Shown in pieces: positions 22,685-41,626 of a DNA stretch of 41,626 nucleotides. A program made the translations under genes and the position numbers. The notes beneath the pieces were generated by a model. The model had not been told where the DNA came from. It was given only the letters and a program-made list of their open reading frames with translations, and ran no database searches. The DNA is taken from positions 1-41,626 of IMG/VR virus record IMGVR_UViG_3300042197_002236; one strand, written 5' to 3'. The DNA is from a virus. The stretch's first letter is position 1. Each line of letters starts with the position of its first letter.

Positions 22685-23233
22685 TCAGGAATTATAATTA
22701 TCTTGAATTCTAAGAAAATCAAAGGTTAAAGTAGCACTAAAACCAACAAACCCAACTTCAGCCATGTTTAGATTAATTTCACCGATAACAGATGGCCAAC
22801 ATTTTTCAAGAAAAATAGTTTTCAAAACACCACCATTTGGATCTAATTGTTCGACTCTCCAAGTTGTTTGCCAAGTTTTATAGCTAAAATCATTATTGGC
22901 GACTGTGTGTGTAAGGTGGCCATCCATCTCTTCGGCCCACTTATGTAGAGCTTTCCAAATAGTTTTAGTATTTCCATCATCATATATTCCAATTGCCCAA
23001 GTACTATATATTCTGTCACCTGGAAATGTAATTTGACGACCACGGTATGGAACAACTATGGTATTGATCTGCGTGGCTGGCAATGAAGCTGAAACAATTT
23101 TAAAAGATGCTTCTTGTTGTGTTGGACTCAATGAACCTAAACTTGGCCACGTTGGATATACGCGAAATCTATTGGCGCGAGTGCCGCCTAGAAAACCGGT
23201 TTTAAAATTGATTATGGAGTTGTTACTTGCCAT
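22685..23233 (-). CDS. Tail tube protein gp19-like, copy 2
   Basis: 182 residues. NFKTGFLGGTRANRFRVYPTWP aligns with the start of copy 1, VPYRGRQITFPGDRIYSTWAI with its middle, and KCWPSVIGEINLNMAEVGFV with RGCWPAAIQPVTLNMGSPNV. The last strand FSATLTFDFLRI also matches. It follows the sheath gene with the stop/start overlapping at 23233, the place of gene 19 in T4, so this copy is the better candidate for the main tube. Confidence 0.87.
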   Translation of the reverse strand: MASNNSIINFKTGFLGGTRANRFRVYPTWPSLGSLSPTQQEASFKIVSASLPATQINTIVVPYRGRQITFPGDRIYSTWAIGIYDDGNTKTIWKALHKWAEEMDGHLTHTVANNDFSYKTWQTTWRVEQLDPNGGVLKTIFLEKCWPSVIGEINLNMAEVGFVGFSATLTFDFLRIQDNYNS

Positions 23234-24543
23234 TATTGTGTGAGAGTTACGGTGACTCCGAAGGATTCAATCGAAAGGATTGGTTGAATTACTACTTGCA
23301 TAGTCAAAGAGCTACCATTATCAGTATTGTTAGAATTATTGCAAACAATTTGTGTTTTGGTAGTATCGATGAATGGGGCAAATGGATCCAAACCAGTTTG
23401 AATTTCTGCCGTAATTTGAGCACGGGTTTGAGCATTATTAATATTGTACAGATACTTTAAACCAATATCGTTAAGCAGCTTATTTAAAGCAAGTTTGAGA
23501 TTTACAGGACCAATTCTATTTTCTGAAGTTATAGTTGCGCTAGCAGTTGCACCAGTTAAATCAGAACCTAAGAAATTATTTTGAGTATAATTTACAAAGA
23601 AATTTACTCTATTAGTTCTCAAAGTAGTTTTAAGGCTACTGGACCAATTAATCGATCCATTAGAAATTTTACCGTTTAAAATAGTTGACAGATCTAAACC
23701 AGCTACAGTTAAGTACAGTTTGTTTTGATTTTTTGATCTATTAAAAAATCCTGCAACATCTACAACTGCTGGTAAATTATACGTTAGACGACTATTTTCA
23801 TATAGCGTCGTAGTATCCAAATCTGTAACAGTTTTAATACCACGAACGTTAAATATTCTATTTGCAACTGTTGTTCCTGTTACAAGTGAACCGGGACTGA
23901 ACAAAGTACCATAGTTTGCCATAGTTAAACCAAGGCCAGTTTCGCCCCCATCTGCAATGCTTGGGAAAATACCAACAGTGTAGGGTTGGGTTACTAACCA
24001 CTGACACAAAGATGCTCCAGCTGATCTTGCTACAACGGCATCAAAATAAACGTCATTGTCTGCAATATATTGATCTAAACCTTGAGTTGTTGGTGCAATA
24101 ACTAAATTACCACCGTATGCCAAATAGTTTAAAGCAAACAAGAAATCAATTCCATTGTTTAAAGTGCCAATATTTGTTAAGCTGGTAGAAGAGTTGGTGC
24201 CTTTATTTGTAAAAAAAGCATATGTATTTCCACCGCAGGAACCAGTCAATAGAGCGTTTGTTATTCCACTCAATTGATTTAAATCATAAACCAAATCTTG
24301 AGAATTTGTATATGTAATATAAGAATCGCTAGTAGTGCCCACTGGGTTTGTTCTAGAAGTTCGGCTATAGATTAGCCAACCAAAAATTCCACCGGGATCC
24401 ACTGTTGGGCCATAAACTCCACTAAAAGTAAATCCTGTATTGTATGTATTTCCCATGAGAACGCCACAGATCAAAGGATTGACTGCGGTTTCTACAAAAA
24501 ATTGATTGCTACTATTAAAAGAGCTAAGTTTGTCGTTGGCCAT
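23233..24543 (-). CDS. 18: Contractile tail sheath protein gp18
   Basis: 436 residues, clearly shorter than T4 gp18 (659), implying loss of the outer protruding domains. The N-terminus MANDKLSSFNSSNQFFVETA is unusual. The C-terminal third carries sheath features: NRIGPVNLKLALNKLLNDIG, RAQITAEIQTGLDPFAPF and the final strands QVVIQPILSIESFGVTVTLT, which form the handshake between subunits. Gene order terL-sheath-tube-portal is as in T4. A late motif and a GAGGA ribosome site precede it. Confidence 0.9.
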   Translation of the reverse strand: MANDKLSSFNSSNQFFVETAVNPLICGVLMGNTYNTGFTFSGVYGPTVDPGGIFGWLIYSRTSRTNPVGTTSDSYITYTNSQDLVYDLNQLSGITNALLTGSCGGNTYAFFTNKGTNSSTSLTNIGTLNNGIDFLFALNYLAYGGNLVIAPTTQGLDQYIADNDVYFDAVVARSAGASLCQWLVTQPYTVGIFPSIADGGETGLGLTMANYGTLFSPGSLVTGTTVANRIFNVRGIKTVTDLDTTTLYENSRLTYNLPAVVDVAGFFNRSKNQNKLYLTVAGLDLSTILNGKISNGSINWSSSLKTTLRTNRVNFFVNYTQNNFLGSDLTGATASATITSENRIGPVNLKLALNKLLNDIGLKYLYNINNAQTRAQITAEIQTGLDPFAPFIDTTKTQIVCNNSNNTDNGSSLTMQVVIQPILSIESFGVTVTLTQ

Positions 24544-32159: not shown

Positions 32160-34157
32160 TTAACCTCCCTGCACCTGAGAACAGGTTCCGTCAAGAACAT
32201 TTTCTGCCCAAAAATATGTTACAAGATTGTTTGCATCTACTCGTTCTCGGCACATTCTTACAATATGATAAATGTTTTCTCCAGACAATCCTTTTGCGGG
32301 TGGACTTTGCTTTGCACCAATTGGTCTATAATAAAAACTTGAAGTTGTCGATACTGGAAGCCACCCGGGAGGTAAATACTGTAATGATTGTGAAGCAGTT
32401 AAACCACGTTCATTTAGATTAATGGCCCAACTGCTATCTTGGGTTTCGCCAGATTTAATATACTGATCAAGGCACCAATTTTCTATAATATGGGCACCAG
32501 TAGTACCGGAAGCACCACTATTGCCACACGCACAGTATCCAGACGCTCCAGACGCTCCCCCAAATTGCAGTTTATTCCACTTATATCGATATTTTTTTGG
32601 AATATTAGCCGAGGTTTGATCTTGGGTTATAGAATTATCTTCTTCATATCTAGTCAAAGCTGCAAAGAAACAATCTTCTTTTTTGCCCATACAACACAAA
32701 GAATACAAAACAAAGTTTTGAAGTTCTATATTTCTAATGAATTCTAAGTTATCTGCGGAAGCACCCACAATTCCAACATTATCAAATGTTTTGCGTCTAA
32801 CTCGTATTACTTTTTGAAGATATGTATTAATACCAACTATTTGACCTTCTGATGCATCCTCATCTGGATAATTTGGGTGTATAGGTGTTAGATCAAACAT
32901 GTTTTTCCACATGTCGGGGCTGTCAGAATATGGCATAGATCCACTCAAACCCATTAACACCATTTGTTTATAATTTGCATCTACACCTATTTCATTACTC
33001 AATAAGGTTGTTTGGGATTTGTGGTTAGCTGGATGGTATCGTTCATAGTAGCCCCAGTTTTCTGGCACCAAAGCTTGTCCGCCGTTGGGTGCACCAGTTA
33101 ACCCATCTCTTCCGTTAATTGAAATTATATCAATATTATATTTTTGTCCTTCATCTTGAAAATGAAAACTTAAGTTTTTAATAGCTTGATTCTCGGCAGT
33201 CTTTCCAGTTAGTTTAACAAGAGAACCACCAGAATAACCAAATAATTCATCCAAATATTTTGGAGTTTTACGAATGTAATAATAGTTTTTTGAAATCCAT
33301 TGCAAACCTGGATTGGTTGCTAAAAAATATGCTTTTCTATAACTTTTTCCATCAGACAACTCTTGAATAACAGAATCACCTTCAAACACACCAATACGTC
33401 TAAAATCTTGATCTATTGTAGGATATGAAGAATCCTCATCGTAAAAACGTTTAAATGACTTAAAATTTACAATTCCATCTAATCCCGTCCAAAAGAAAAA
33501 ATTGGGATTTCCATCGACATCAACTGCATTTGCCGCAACATAATTAAGGATTTGAAGTGTGTCATCAGAAATATGTTCTTCACCTTCCTCATAAGGATTG
33601 AATGGCTTATACAAAAAATAATTTAATGCTGTGTCGCCATACCCTGGATAATCGTCCAGATCCCCAACATTAAAAACTTCTTTTTTTACTTCATCAATAA
33701 ATTCATTAATCTTAAAAACTTCAGGAGAATAAAAACCAAGAAGACTATTTAAAGATTCTGTTGATAATTTTTTATACCATTTATTTGTAAAGTGAATAGA
33801 TACCAGTGTATCATCACCGACACTGACTGCATTATTGGAATAAGATATGCTTGTTATATCAAAATTCCAAGTTTTATTGGCTCCATTCTCAAATAAGTCA
33901 ATTTCTATTTCATCAAGTTTATTATATGCAATATAAGAAACAACATCAGCCAAATCAGCAACCAAAATTACACCGCTTGGGCATAAATCATTAATATTTT
34001 CTACCATTTCGATTCGCTCAAAACGGCAAACCTTATTGTTTGGTGTATTTAATTCATTTATAATCAACACAGTGTCGTTGCCGCGCACAGAAGACTTTAA
34101 ACGAATTTTTTGAATGGTAGAATAAGCTGGATTAAATCTATTATCAGTATTCGGCAT
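32160..34157 (-). CDS. Large probable baseplate structural protein
   Basis: 665 residues, no clear family name. The N-terminal part (about 1-330) has alternating strands and acidic helices, including FKINEFIDEVKKEVF and NFFFWTGLDGIVNFKSF, similar in style to gp27/gpD hub proteins. Residues about 530-555 form a Gly-Ala-Ser patch with GASGASG and GNSGASGTTGA, like a short collagen-type insert, next to CACGN. The C-terminus is Ser/Gly-rich. It is 3 nt upstream of the Cys-containing gene and 1 nt after the gp53-like gene, so it is part of the tail operon. Hub identity is a guess. Confidence 0.5.
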   Translation of the reverse strand: MPNTDNRFNPAYSTIQKIRLKSSVRGNDTVLIINELNTPNNKVCRFERIEMVENINDLCPSGVILVADLADVVSYIAYNKLDEIEIDLFENGANKTWNFDITSISYSNNAVSVGDDTLVSIHFTNKWYKKLSTESLNSLLGFYSPEVFKINEFIDEVKKEVFNVGDLDDYPGYGDTALNYFLYKPFNPYEEGEEHISDDTLQILNYVAANAVDVDGNPNFFFWTGLDGIVNFKSFKRFYDEDSSYPTIDQDFRRIGVFEGDSVIQELSDGKSYRKAYFLATNPGLQWISKNYYYIRKTPKYLDELFGYSGGSLVKLTGKTAENQAIKNLSFHFQDEGQKYNIDIISINGRDGLTGAPNGGQALVPENWGYYERYHPANHKSQTTLLSNEIGVDANYKQMVLMGLSGSMPYSDSPDMWKNMFDLTPIHPNYPDEDASEGQIVGINTYLQKVIRVRRKTFDNVGIVGASADNLEFIRNIELQNFVLYSLCCMGKKEDCFFAALTRYEEDNSITQDQTSANIPKKYRYKWNKLQFGGASGASGYCACGNSGASGTTGAHIIENWCLDQYIKSGETQDSSWAINLNERGLTASQSLQYLPPGWLPVSTTSSFYYRPIGAKQSPPAKGLSGENIYHIVRMCRERVDANNLVTYFWAENVLDGTCSQVQGG

Positions 34158-34158
34158 A

Positions 34159-35001
34159 TCAATTATACTTAGCTGTTATAAATGAGGAACGCAGAGTTCC
34201 CAAGGTATTTGTAGGATACGCTTTAATAGTTTTTGAAGTATTGTCCACAAATTGTTTTGCAGTAACAGTTTCCGCAGCCTCAAATCCTGAAGCGGGACCA
34301 ACATCTAATAATTCATCAACAGTAATATTAGAAGAATTTTGTTGTTTTATAATAGTTTTTCCTTCTTCAACATCTTCAATATAAACTACTACATCCGGTG
34401 CAGTCTTTTTATTTGATGTATAAAATATGCCACCCCAAGAATAAGAACCATCTGAATTTTGATTTAAAACAACAACTTGATCATATGTTGTTCCCGTTGT
34501 AATAAACGCCCCGGTTCCACCAAATTGTTTACCAGAAGTCATGTTACCATCATAAAACAAAGTATTTTGTATTCTTGCAAACGCACCACTTAAATTAAAA
34601 TTACCAGTTGAACCGTAGGCAGCAGTTCCGCCAGTATTTCCAACATACGGAACCACAATACTTCCAATAGGAAAAGCGCTACCCCCTGTCGTAGCACCCT
34701 GTGTTGGGAACAAAAGAAAGTTAATTTTTTGTTGATTTTCTTCTTCAAACAAAACAGTATTTTCAGCTAATAAATCAAATGGATTTATAGCATCATTAGC
34801 AGCCAAAAAAGACCAAATTGTGTTTGGATCGGTGTACGTATTGTAGCCAGCTTCTACTAAAGTATTTTTATTGTCAATAACAATATCTGATACATCTAAA
34901 AAAATGTTTTCAACATTTAAATAAGTAAAAAAATTAGATACAGTAAAATTACCTATACTTGAAGAAAATGTTATTTTTGGTAAATTACTAAAAAATTTCA
35001 T
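34159..35001 (-). CDS. Baseplate protein with gp53/LysM-like N-terminus
   Basis: 280 residues. Near residues 35-80 FLDVSDIVIDNK then YNTYTDPNTIWSFLAANDAINPFDLL follows the pattern of gp53-type wedge proteins (a Y-x-Y-x-D/N-P...W...L..N...dPf' run as in 'YGNPQLYWVLLMCNDNYDPY' of T4). The rest is Gly/Thr-rich beta structure and ends in LRSSFITAKYN. T4 gp53 has 196 residues, so this would be an extended relative. It lies between a tube-cap-like gene and the large baseplate gene. Confidence 0.5.
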   Translation of the reverse strand: MKFFSNLPKITFSSSIGNFTVSNFFTYLNVENIFLDVSDIVIDNKNTLVEAGYNTYTDPNTIWSFLAANDAINPFDLLAENTVLFEEENQQKINFLLFPTQGATTGGSAFPIGSIVVPYVGNTGGTAAYGSTGNFNLSGAFARIQNTLFYDGNMTSGKQFGGTGAFITTGTTYDQVVVLNQNSDGSYSWGGIFYTSNKKTAPDVVVYIEDVEEGKTIIKQQNSSNITVDELLDVGPASGFEAAETVTAKQFVDNTSKTIKAYPTNTLGTLRSSFITAKYN

Positions 35002-36840: not shown

Positions 36841-37503
36841 ATGGATTTTATTGAATCTTTACAAAAGGCACTCCCAACATATGAAGCGACACTTCCTTTT
36901 GCAAAAAAGGTTGTAAAGTTTCAACCATTTAAAGTAAAAGACGCCAAAAATATTTCAATTATTTTGCAAGAAGACAACAAAAAATTAGCTCTTAATGCGA
37001 TGATTGACTTGTTAAAAACAAATACAACAGGAGTAAATATTCTAGATTTGTGTTTGGCTGATGCCGAATTTTTATTTTTGCAAATACGATCTAAAAGTGT
37101 TGATGAAAAACTTAACTTAATTTTTAACAACGAGCGTATTTCGGTCTTTATTCCTGATATTGGTTATAGAAATAACATAAAATCAGAAAGCATTCATATA
37201 TCTCCAGAAATTAGTATAGTTGTTGAAACTCCACTAATTAAAGATTTATTAAAACTAGAAACTCTTGAATCTATTGATTTGATTAAATCTAGTATTAAAA
37301 AAGTTGTAACAAATGGTGAAATATTTTATGTCAACAAATTTGTAACCGATGAGGTAAAAACTCTATTGGATAACTTGCCGATGAATGTACTTCCTAAGTT
37401 AGAGGAATTTTTAAAAAATCAACCCGAGCTTTTTATAGTATTAAAGACGCAATTGGGTGATAAGGAGGTGTCTGGTTTTTTAAGTTTTTTTACTTATCGG
37501 TAA
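36841..37503 (+). CDS. 26: gp26-like baseplate hub/tail-assembly protein, zero-frame product
   Basis: 220 residues from the ATG at 36841 (T4 gp26: 208). KKVVKFQPFKVKDAKNISIILQE and NILDLCLADAEFLFLQIRSKSVDEK are the blocks of the T4 baseplate protein family. The C-terminal third, with KDLLKLETLESIDLIKSSIKKVV, is helical. The gene ends SGFLSFFTYR just after two poly-U slippery heptamers, and the -1 frame remains open for 66 more codons beyond its stop, so a longer, frameshifted product is probable. The upstream gene stop (36838) is 2 nt from this ATG. Confidence 0.75.
   Translation: MDFIESLQKALPTYEATLPFAKKVVKFQPFKVKDAKNISIILQEDNKKLALNAMIDLLKTNTTGVNILDLCLADAEFLFLQIRSKSVDEKLNLIFNNERISVFIPDIGYRNNIKSESIHISPEISIVVETPLIKDLLKLETLESIDLIKSSIKKVVTNGEIFYVNKFVTDEVKTLLDNLPMNVLPKLEEFLKNQPELFIVLKTQLGDKEVSGFLSFFTYR
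37462..37491 (+). promoter_or_regulatory. Candidate -1 programmed ribosomal frameshift site
   Basis: An internal Shine-Dalgarno-like AAGGAGG (37462-37468) stands 7 nt before T TTT TTA (37476-37482), and a second heptamer T TTT TTT (37485-37491) follows 2 nt later. Both are in the correct zero frame for X XXY YYZ slippage. dnaX and several phage tail genes use the same design. Confidence 0.7.
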
Positions 37504-37700
37504 AGTTTTTTGATTTAAGAGATTACTTCACAACAAACTTTACCTTAGTAAATAACTTTAACTGGAGTTTAATGGATCTGGAAGACATGATATGGTGGGA
37601 ACGAGAAATTTATGTTAAAATATTGGCAGATTACCAAGAACAAAAACAAAATGAATCAATGGCTTCACAATATAACATGAAAGGAGCGCTAGGACTATGA
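37482..37700 (+). CDS. -1 frame extension of the gp26-like protein (frameshift-expressed)
   Basis: An open -1 frame whose only ATG in the early part is at 37572, and with no start codon before it back to the stop at 37461-37463, so it is unlikely to be an independent full gene. After slippage it adds 72 codons, total about 286 residues. The extension reads like protein: FFDLRDYFTTNFTLVNNFNW, then LEDMIWWEREIYVKILADY and a Gln/Lys tail ending NMKGALGL. The 'fxWs...l..M..wEre...' style is that of tail-assembly-chaperone extensions. Its TGA overlaps the next ATG (ATGA), suggesting it is translated. A minimal independent ORF from 37572 (42 residues) is the alternative. Confidence 0.65.
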   Translation, partial: KFFYLSVKFFDLRDYFTTNFTLVNNFNWSLMDLEDMIWWEREIYVKILADYQEQKQNESMASQYNMKGALGL

Positions 37701-38173
37701 ACGACAATCAATTTCAAATCGACATTGAAGCAGAACAACAATTACTTTCAACAAGTTTAACGACTAAGCCATCTGACATTGCTGTGCAAAAAACAGAAAC
37801 TATAGCAACCTCTTTTGCACTTCCTGAGTCTCTTTCTTTATCAGAACAATTACAACCAACCGTTGAGCTTCCAAAATCAGTTTTATTAGAACCAACAAAA
37901 TTAGAAAATGCTTCTACACCCATGGCAGAAGTATCAAAGGTTGCTGCTGGATTAAGTGTTAAATTTGATGCGGAATCCAGCTACAATCAATTAAGCAAAA
38001 AAGTAGAAGAAATAGAACAGGGATTTGATTCTAATATGAATTTGAGTGGGGATAGGTGGATTCCATATCCCAAAGCTCAAAATAAATTTGAAGAAAAGCC
38101 AACAACAGATCCAACAAATTTAATTTTTGAAGATCGCATGGATCGTTTTTCTACTTTTCCTGTTTGGCAATAA
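37697..38173 (+). CDS. Unknown protein, last gene of the gp4-gp26 operon
   Basis: 158 residues, not recognised. It has no cysteine, is rich in Ser, Thr, Glu and Lys, and looks largely disordered in the first 90 residues with short repeats of the type ESLSLSEQLQP. A helix at about 95-112 (YNQLSKKVEEIEQGF) and the ending GDRWIPYPKAQNKFEEKP, FEDRMDRFSTFPVWQ are the ordered parts. It starts at the ATGA overlap with the -1 frame extension and ends 6 nt before a terminator. A tail-assembly role is suggested by neighbours only. Confidence 0.45.
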   Translation: MNDNQFQIDIEAEQQLLSTSLTTKPSDIAVQKTETIATSFALPESLSLSEQLQPTVELPKSVLLEPTKLENASTPMAEVSKVAAGLSVKFDAESSYNQLSKKVEEIEQGFDSNMNLSGDRWIPYPKAQNKFEEKPTTDPTNLIFEDRMDRFSTFPVWQ

Positions 38174-39440: not shown

Positions 39441-40442
39441 ATGTATCCAGATTACGGTAGCGATTATGTAGTAATTAACAGCGGGGCAACATTTGCCATT
39501 GGTGCAGATCCAGTCCTAGCATCAAGCGGTCTAACCACTTATATTCAATATTATAAGGTTGGCTTTGGCGCTACTGGTGCCTTTGGTCCCGTAACTTCTG
39601 GTAACCCACTACCAGTATCTTTTGCTGGAGGCATCACCGCCACCATTTCTGGATTTACTGGAGTCTTTACTGTACAAGGAATGGTCGGCGGACAAGCTGT
39701 ACCAGTTTCTGGAACGGTAAGCGTAACTGGCATCAGTGCATCTCCGGTCTTTGTACAGACACCAGCAAATTGCTATGTTGAAGTTACTGGTGGCATTCCA
39801 CTTTCTAAAACAACAGATTCAATTTCAATTTTTGGACCAAATGGAAATACTTGGGCATACGTAAATATTGTTGATACAAGCGGTTCGGCCATAGGTATTT
39901 CTAGCAATCCACTCTATACATATATCGCTGGCGCTACATTTACCGTAAGCATCAATCCAACCGTAGGTGTTACCAACGACACCGCAGGCAATGGTCTTAT
40001 TATTCAGGGTATGAGTGGTGGTAGAGCCGTTTCAACCACAGTTGGCAACACAGTATACATTTATGATACAAATATTTTAAATGGTATGACCAATATTTCT
40101 GCCGACATTGATGCTCTCGGTGGAACTTTGGATGCAATTTATAATGCACTTTCTGTCTTTGGTTTAGTTCGTCCAACTACTTCTTACTCTGGGTTGACTG
40201 GAATTTCAACTGCTGTTTCTAGGATTGGTGGCAATTCCGGATTTACTTGTGCTGGTGGAATAAACTTTAAATCTTTGGGAACAAATACAGATTTAATTTA
40301 TCTTGGTTCATCCAACGTCGGAACAAGTTATGGCTATCAACTAGAACCCGGAGAAAATATTTTCTTCAATGTTGGTAATGTAAATCTTGTATACGCAACA
40401 GCCAGAAGTGGAACACAAACACTAAGTTATTTTGCATCTTAA
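39441..40442 (+). CDS. Unknown probable virion protein with repeat modules
   Basis: 333 residues, almost all Gly/Thr/Ser/Val-rich beta structure, no cysteine motif and no signal peptide. A module is repeated: VQGMVGGQAVPVSGTVSV (about 77-94) and IQGMSGGRAVSTTVGNTVYI (about 187-206). The final part (residues about 250-333) has NFKSLGTNTDLIYLG and GYQLEPGENIFF, as in small head- or neck-decoration or fibre-end domains. It has a late promoter and ribosome site and is 3 nt upstream of another unknown gene. A structural role is inferred. Confidence 0.5.
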   Translation: MYPDYGSDYVVINSGATFAIGADPVLASSGLTTYIQYYKVGFGATGAFGPVTSGNPLPVSFAGGITATISGFTGVFTVQGMVGGQAVPVSGTVSVTGISASPVFVQTPANCYVEVTGGIPLSKTTDSISIFGPNGNTWAYVNIVDTSGSAIGISSNPLYTYIAGATFTVSINPTVGVTNDTAGNGLIIQGMSGGRAVSTTVGNTVYIYDTNILNGMTNISADIDALGGTLDAIYNALSVFGLVRPTTSYSGLTGISTAVSRIGGNSGFTCAGGINFKSLGTNTDLIYLGSSNVGTSYGYQLEPGENIFFNVGNVNLVYATARSGTQTLSYFAS

Positions 40443-40445
40443 TAT

Positions 40446-41626
40446 ATGTCTTCGACAAGTTCAACAAATAGATTTTTAAGTTTAGTCAAATATACCACAA
40501 CCAATATTTCTGAGTATGTTGGATCAACTGCTGATCCATGTCTTACAAAAGGTTTGGTTAGTTCTTCGCCCGCTGTTTATAAAAATGGTGCTAGTTTTTA
40601 CTTTGATTATTCTTCCACAACCAATGGGGCGGATCTTAAGTTTTTAAAACGTTTTTTTGGTGTTTTGACTGCCGGTAATACTTTTAGTGTTTCTGGTGGA
40701 ACTTATTATGTCGAGGAAACTGGTGCTCAATATAGTTTTGCTGGCACATACACCTATTATGGTTCTACTGGTATAAGTAACCATTATTTAAATTTGGGTG
40801 GCGTAACCTATTCTCCATCTTTAACAGACGGATTATATGAAAGTAAAAACTTTATAAGCGCAATCAATTATTCAGCTATTAAAGGGAATACTGCTCAATA
40901 TTTTGTATCTAAAGTAAACAGAGATGACCCAAACAATATTAACTTTTTGGGTATTTACGGAAATGATTATGGATATGAAGAGTATCTAGAAACTACCCCA
41001 GGATTAACAAATAATACTCGTTATCTTATTGATACAGCCATCAAATTAAATGATGGGTCTGAAATAATTTATCTAAATTCTTCAAATACAATCCAAACAG
41101 AAAAAAGATACTTTTTACCAACCACCGTAAACATTTACATGCGTGGAGTTCCAGATTTAAATACTCTTGCTGCTCCAACAAATACAAATGGTATTGTTAA
41201 AAAAATGGATTCTGATGGAGATGTTGTAGCAATATTTCAAAATCAAAATCTAAGACAAAAATACTGCAGAAATATTAATGATGCTACAAATTTTTATGAC
41301 TGGTATGGTGTGGTAAAAACTAGCAGCCTAGAAAATGTATTAAATCCGCTTGCTTACAATGGGCTTTCATTTTCTTATAATTACTATTCTTTTGTTAAAT
41401 GGGCTGTAAGTTTTATTGCAAACACCTTTAATCCCACTACAAATGAACCAGTTTATCGTGAAGTATTATCAATATTTGTTGATGGCGTCGCCACAAACAC
41501 TGCAAATTATGCAATCTCAGGAGCAAATCCCTTTGGAACTATATTAAAAATGGATCTATCTGATGCATCTTTATTCAATACAACTATAGAACCATTTTTA
41601 GATGCTGCCTGTTCTGTAAGACTTAA
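40446..41626 (+). CDS. Unknown probable virion protein, 3' end beyond the window
   Basis: Open from the ATG at 40446 to the window edge, 393 codons without a stop. The composition is Thr/Ser/Asn/Tyr-rich, as in tail fibre or structural proteins. Landmarks are NRFLSLVKYTTTNISEY at the start, FLKRFFGVLTAGNTFSVSGG near residue 65, FYDWYGVVKTSSLENVLNP near 280 and YSFVKWAVSFIANTFNP near 312. It follows the 39441 gene by 3 nt, so the two form an operon. No family recognised. Confidence 0.55.
   Translation, partial: MSSTSSTNRFLSLVKYTTTNISEYVGSTADPCLTKGLVSSSPAVYKNGASFYFDYSSTTNGADLKFLKRFFGVLTAGNTFSVSGGTYYVEETGAQYSFAGTYTYYGSTGISNHYLNLGGVTYSPSLTDGLYESKNFISAINYSAIKGNTAQYFVSKVNRDDPNNINFLGIYGNDYGYEEYLETTPGLTNNTRYLIDTAIKLNDGSEIIYLNSSNTIQTEKRYFLPTTVNIYMRGVPDLNTLAAPTNTNGIVKKMDSDGDVVAIFQNQNLRQKYCRNINDATNFYDWYGVVKTSSLENVLNPLAYNGLSFSYNYYSFVKWAVSFIANTFNPTTNEPVYREVLSIFVDGVATNTANYAISGANPFGTILKMDLSDASLFNTTIEPFLDAACSVRL

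Follow-up and report, generated by a model that had tools for sequence, protein, structure and literature searches.

Whether a gp26-type gene in a T4-like virus yields one protein or two was examined in an IMG/VR virus record, analysed over its whole length of 41,626 nucleotides (hereafter the window), which carries T4-type head, portal, terminase, baseplate and single-strand binding protein genes. A sequence-only reading had proposed a short and a long product made by -1 frameshifting, and every element it listed, namely an AAGGAGG run, two T-rich heptamers and an open -1 frame, was found in the sequence. From comparison of related genomes, gene 26 very probably makes two tail assembly chaperones via a -1 frameshift on T TTT TTT. 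The features of the gp26 locus described below lie on the plus strand. As a side observation, the large ORFs at 23233-24543, 32160-34157, 34159-35001, 39441-40442 and 40446-41624 gave no PHROG match at E ≤ 0.001, and sit within an otherwise T4-like structural region.

Gene 26 and the reading frame beyond its stop codon

The gp26-like gene occupies 36841-37503 (220 aa) and ends, as had been read before, at 37503 with the 0-frame stop codon TAA (37501-37503). Profile searches matched its product to PF12322 (E = 1.5e-23; 84.1 bits against a curated cut-off of 24.5) and to phrog_150 (E = 5e-22), and it was annotated as a gp26-type baseplate hub protein or putative short tail assembly chaperone. 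The next ORF (37697-38173, 158 aa) was without a confident Pfam or PHROG match, and none of the window ORFs that were scanned was recognised as a tape-measure gene.

The -1 frame is open from 37464 to 37697, its TGA (37698-37700) overlaps the next ATG (37697) as ATGA, and it holds no ATG, GTG or TTG before 37572, all in line with the sequence-only reading. Translation of 37464-37697 matched phrog_634 (gp51, "baseplate hub assembly catalyst") over residues 9-70 with E = 3e-14, so that the extension, previously described only as protein-like, could be assigned as a gp51 domain; using hhalign, its core aligned with the C-terminus of T4-type gp51 (E = 4e-5). Counted from the predicted slippage site, the extension spans 37491-37700, with 69 codons and the TGA. 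The predicted long form thus comprises 217 + 69 = 286 residues, which agrees with the sizes of about 220 and 286 residues proposed earlier; the extension of 72 codons given with them had to be shortened, since 69 codons are read in -1. The first ATG of this frame (37572-37574) lies inside the gp51 domain, and the phrog_634 match weakened to 1e-5 when the frame was read only from there, which places part of the conserved domain in a stretch that offers no start codon. Regarding the families themselves, phrog_634 seems to consist mainly of pieces of frameshift products, and in phrog_150 gp26 and full-length gp51 are pooled.

For comparison, 41 freshwater loci (handles L, used also for other records below) and the window were reduced to 29 distinct gp26 genes, 27 of them also distinct downstream. 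Over 165 nt from the heptamer, the 27 sequences contained 0 stops in the -1 frame, with 178 in frame 0 and 121 in frame +1, and a 69-codon -1 frame after the heptamer stayed open in only 0.3% of Markov-1 sequences with matched dinucleotides. Differences among the 27 sequences fall mostly on the third positions of -1 codons, also in the part that precedes ATG 37572; L042 has FFILR instead of FFTYR at the end of frame 0 but retains FFYL in -1. Judged by these substitution patterns, the -1 frame is under coding selection: the amino-acid conservation that the sequence-only reading had proposed to look for was present, and the stop codons and random drift that it had named as counter-evidence did not appear.

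Two explanations other than frameshifting bear on this frame. If gp26 and gp51 were one gene carrying an indel in this contig, by sequencing error or decay, the abutting frames and the in-frame fusion in T4 gp51 would be expected; the same arrangement recurs, though, in dozens of independent assemblies and isolates, and together with the coding selection on the -1 frame this makes such an error, already weighed in the earlier reading, extremely unlikely. Alternatively, gp51 could be a separate small gene, translated alone by coupling or from ATG 37572, with the heptamer incidental. GGAG stands just before that ATG, and GTGA or ATGA is found at the stop in L035/L036 and L041/L042. This first start of the window is, however, placed inside the domain and is not conserved, being replaced by a Ser, Phe, Thr, Gln or Glu codon in relatives, and the residues FFYL/FFR are conserved ahead of any start.

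Slippery heptamer, upstream run and downstream hairpin

T TTT TTT at 37485-37491 was assigned as the predicted -1 frameshift site. It was present near the end of gp26 in all 29 distinct freshwater genes, starting 16 nt before the gp26 stop in 27/27 of the downstream-distinct sequences, and is kept, as T TTT TTC, in marine relatives. The other heptamer, T TTT TTA (37476-37482), was considered as a site and rejected: outside the closest relatives, L006-L010, it was not found, and its position would be unusable in L012 and L019, where a -1 stop falls between the two heptamer positions. Of the two heptamers originally put forward, it is thus the second that was retained as the site, and the first is probably not one. 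In-frame T TTT TTN occurs at 28 sites in the 12,950 codons of the window, and the combination with an upstream SD-like run and a nearby stop was seen only at the two sites here.

The SD-like run AAGGAGG (37462-37468) is a putative stimulator. With the site moved to the second heptamer, the 7-nt gap formerly stated does not apply, AGGAGG ending 16 nt 5' of T TTT TTT. The run is kept, as had been suggested for checking: AGGAGG was found at the same 16 nt in 24/29 freshwater relatives and GAGGT in the other 5/29. Given these motifs, the Glu codon of the run is GAG in 29/29 genes; elsewhere in these genes, GAG accounts for 58 of 514 Glu codons.

Downstream, a 10-bp hairpin that had been missed in the sequence-only reading was identified, formed by GGTAAAGTTT (37499-37508) and AAACTTTACC (37535-37544). 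Its 5' arm begins 7 nt past the heptamer and contains the gp26 stop codon. In L035 and L036 the arms read GGTGAAATT/AATTTCACC. Across 23 distinct freshwater sequences 95.7% of cells were paired, with 7 double-changed cells versus 1.5 in shuffles and ≤2 in slid controls, where shuffle counts are not to be read as probabilities, since the sequences are related. Folding of the 109 nt downstream in the window alone was not significant (z = -0.6), and the hairpin became clear only through comparison and covariation; its absence from L038, L041 and L042, which diverge most among the freshwater relatives, counts against the frameshift reading.

The marine relatives have a different hairpin, GTATGGCTCA/TGAGTCATAC, which begins at 5 nt and showed 38 double-changed cells versus 12.6 in shuffles (≤28 in slid controls), the same reservation on relatedness applying to these counts. 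One marine pair varies as UA 32, GC 12 and AU 10; its 5' base is a silent Ala third position and its 3' base the second position of a Glu, Val or Ala codon, which favours RNA pairing over protein constraint.

RNA polymerase rather than the ribosome might slip on the T run and so yield the fused product, T runs being prone to transcript slippage as general knowledge. The run comprises 7 T here, and in 85/85 marine genes only 6 T before a C. Three features typical of slipping ribosomes are present: a heptamer in the in-frame XXXYYYZ phase, an SD-like run ahead of it and a hairpin at a distance of 5-7 nt. Polymerase slippage was on these grounds rated very improbable.

Marine relatives and the two-gene layout of T4

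The marine set, a further 80 loci and six isolates, yielded 85 distinct genes. T TTT TTC was present at the equivalent place in 85/85; in the 84 genes tabulated it started 10 nt ahead of the stop, and gp51 was in -1 without exception (84/84). GGAGGG or GAGGG stood 9 nt upstream of the heptamer in 69/85. The 16-nt distance of the SD-like run in the window, against 9 nt in this set, counts against the frameshift reading. The same T TTT TTC with gp51 in -1 was found in S-PM2, S-SM2, P-SSM2, P-SSM4 and pelagiphage Mosig, as well as in Vibrio phages V07 and D484 and Rhizobium phage IC12; the arrangement occurs in Kyanoviridae and in the genus Schizotequatrovirus of the Straboviridae. Among the heptamer-bearing records examined, the only exception was S-SCSM1 (L002), which has 11 extra bases after the gp26 stop relative to S-SM2 and in which gp51, with an ATG of its own, is in +1; with this insertion no -1 fusion is possible in that record, and it is either a real alternative or a record error.

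In many marine relatives an ATG follows the gp26 stop at 5 or 14 nt. Separate initiation is possible there, which counts against the frameshift reading, and cyanophage records annotate gp51 separately, with an ATG 5-14 nt past the stop. Against a gp51 translated on its own, the annotated ATG of the marine set falls in the 5' arm of the covarying hairpin, several isolates are without an early start (ACG-2014b, ACG-2014d, ACG-2014e, DSL-LC03 and S-CREM1), and its counterpart in T4 is one fused protein. Taken with the freshwater evidence, a separately translated gp51 was judged improbable, and -1 frameshifting is the preferred reading. In L057 (ACG-2014b), L064 (ACG-2014e), L152 (ACG-2014d) and L153 (DSL-LC03), no gp51 is annotated in the interval from gp26 to the following gene, apparently for want of an early start codon.

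Residues 1-201 of T4 gp51 matched PF12322 (E = 4e-52); whole T4 gp51 matched phrog_150 and its C-terminal part phrog_634 (1e-23). Being a PF12322-like domain with a phrog_634 tail, T4 gp51 is a long paralogue of the short T4 gp26, and the predicted frameshift product equals full-length T4 gp51. Separate full gp26 and gp51 genes were also found in Aeromonas avDM3, Pseudomonas PspYZU05, Klebsiella Snake_ER16 and Vibrio pv27. In one T4-like genome (L055:2501-3258), gp51 is split over two reading frames of 120 and 123 aa near position 2860, and its match of 746 nt is not a multiple of three; either the record contains an indel or the gene is genuinely interrupted.

Cyanophage gp51 has been reported to be only about 20% of the T4 length, the first ~200 residues being missing from cyanophage and marine vibriophage gp51 (Sullivan et al. 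2010, PMC3037559). It is proposed that cyanophage gp51 is short because its N-terminus is supplied by frameshifting from gp26, exactly in place of the missing ~200 residues. Given the frameshift arrangement in both Kyanoviridae and Schizotequatrovirus, there are hints that the T4 split is the derived state.

The fold of the short form was approached with an AF2 model of gp26 (pLDDT 89). Its N-terminal ~90 residues (1-97) aligned with 3fgx (Z 6.0) and with the HK97 tail assembly chaperone 2ob9 (Z 5.6), both below Z 8, the next best of the unrelated rows reaching Z 2.9. Foldseek of the model against the PDB gave no significant match, the HK97 chaperone surfacing only with a second aligner, and a PDB sequence search with the gp26 alignment returned nothing relevant. 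The modelled N-terminal domain thus bears a suggestive resemblance to the HK97 tail assembly chaperone. The short and long chaperone-like pair of the earlier reading gained support, the extension being a gp51 domain and T4 gp51 a gp26-like part joined to that domain, which fits such a pair.

Proposed mechanism and comparison with known systems

In the proposed mechanism, most ribosomes would stop at 37501 and release the 220-residue short form. A minority would pause at the hairpin (37499-37544), aided by the upstream AAGGAGG, slip by -1 on T TTT TTT (37485-37491) and continue through the gp51 domain; the predicted long form, of 286 residues, would be equivalent to T4 gp51. What the sequences show is homology, conserved signals, coding selection in the -1 frame, covariation and the paralogy in T4, whereas the slippage, its rate and any stimulation by hairpin and SD-like run are inferred. 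The two forms probably act like lambda gpG/gpGT and would chaperone the tape-measure or hub protein in tail assembly.

As a broader proposal, held to be somewhat more likely than not, T4-superfamily phages outside Tevenvirinae may share an SD-like run, T TTT TTY and a covarying hairpin 5-7 nt downstream for making the gp51 chaperone. The annotated cyanophage gp51 genes (hundreds) would then be fragments, their start often buried in the hairpin, and the two-gene layout of T4 a derived split. Frameshifting at gene 26 would correct the annotation of many marine and lake phage genomes, several with gp51 unannotated, would account for the short cyanophage form of gp51, an essential hub assembly protein of T4, and would offer a natural experiment on a frameshifted pair becoming two genes.

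The sequence-only reading knew of no earlier report for a T4-type gp26, a statement that has to be withdrawn. According to the PRFect paper (PMC10885494), Vladimirov, Gautam and Davidson (Virology 2022) assigned chaperone genes in T4-like phages, in some of which a short gene stands apart from a longer, fused one. The same study is credited with poly-T frameshift signals in T4-like phages by the phage Adele paper (PMC12846349); as relayed by these citing papers, the concept is already known. A GTTTTT site is described for Vandenendeviridae (PMC12846349). In the open-access literature searched, the covarying hairpins and the freshwater variant without an early gp51 start were not found, and both details appear to be new.

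Compared with the T4-like chaperones of Vladimirov et al. (2022), as those citing papers present them, and with Vandenendeviridae, the locus shares a poly-T -1 signal that ends the short chaperone gene, whereas the freshwater clade differs from what is relayed of these systems in having T TTT TTT, no gp51 start and a covarying hairpin. With T4 itself it shares two homologous protein species, gp26 (PF12322) and gp51 (PF12322-like with a phrog_634 tail), but T4 encodes them as separate genes on opposite strands, and the window as one gene with a predicted -1 shift. Like lambda gpG/gpGT and P2 gpE/E', the predicted pair consists of a short and a long form with a common N-terminus and a -1 heptamer near the end of the short gene, the suggestive resemblance to the HK97 chaperone fold being placed here in residues 1-87 of the gp26 model. 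Unlike those pairs, it is built from a T4-type hub gene, with an extra C-terminal domain in gp26, and the gene is not directly upstream of a recognised tape-measure gene in the window.
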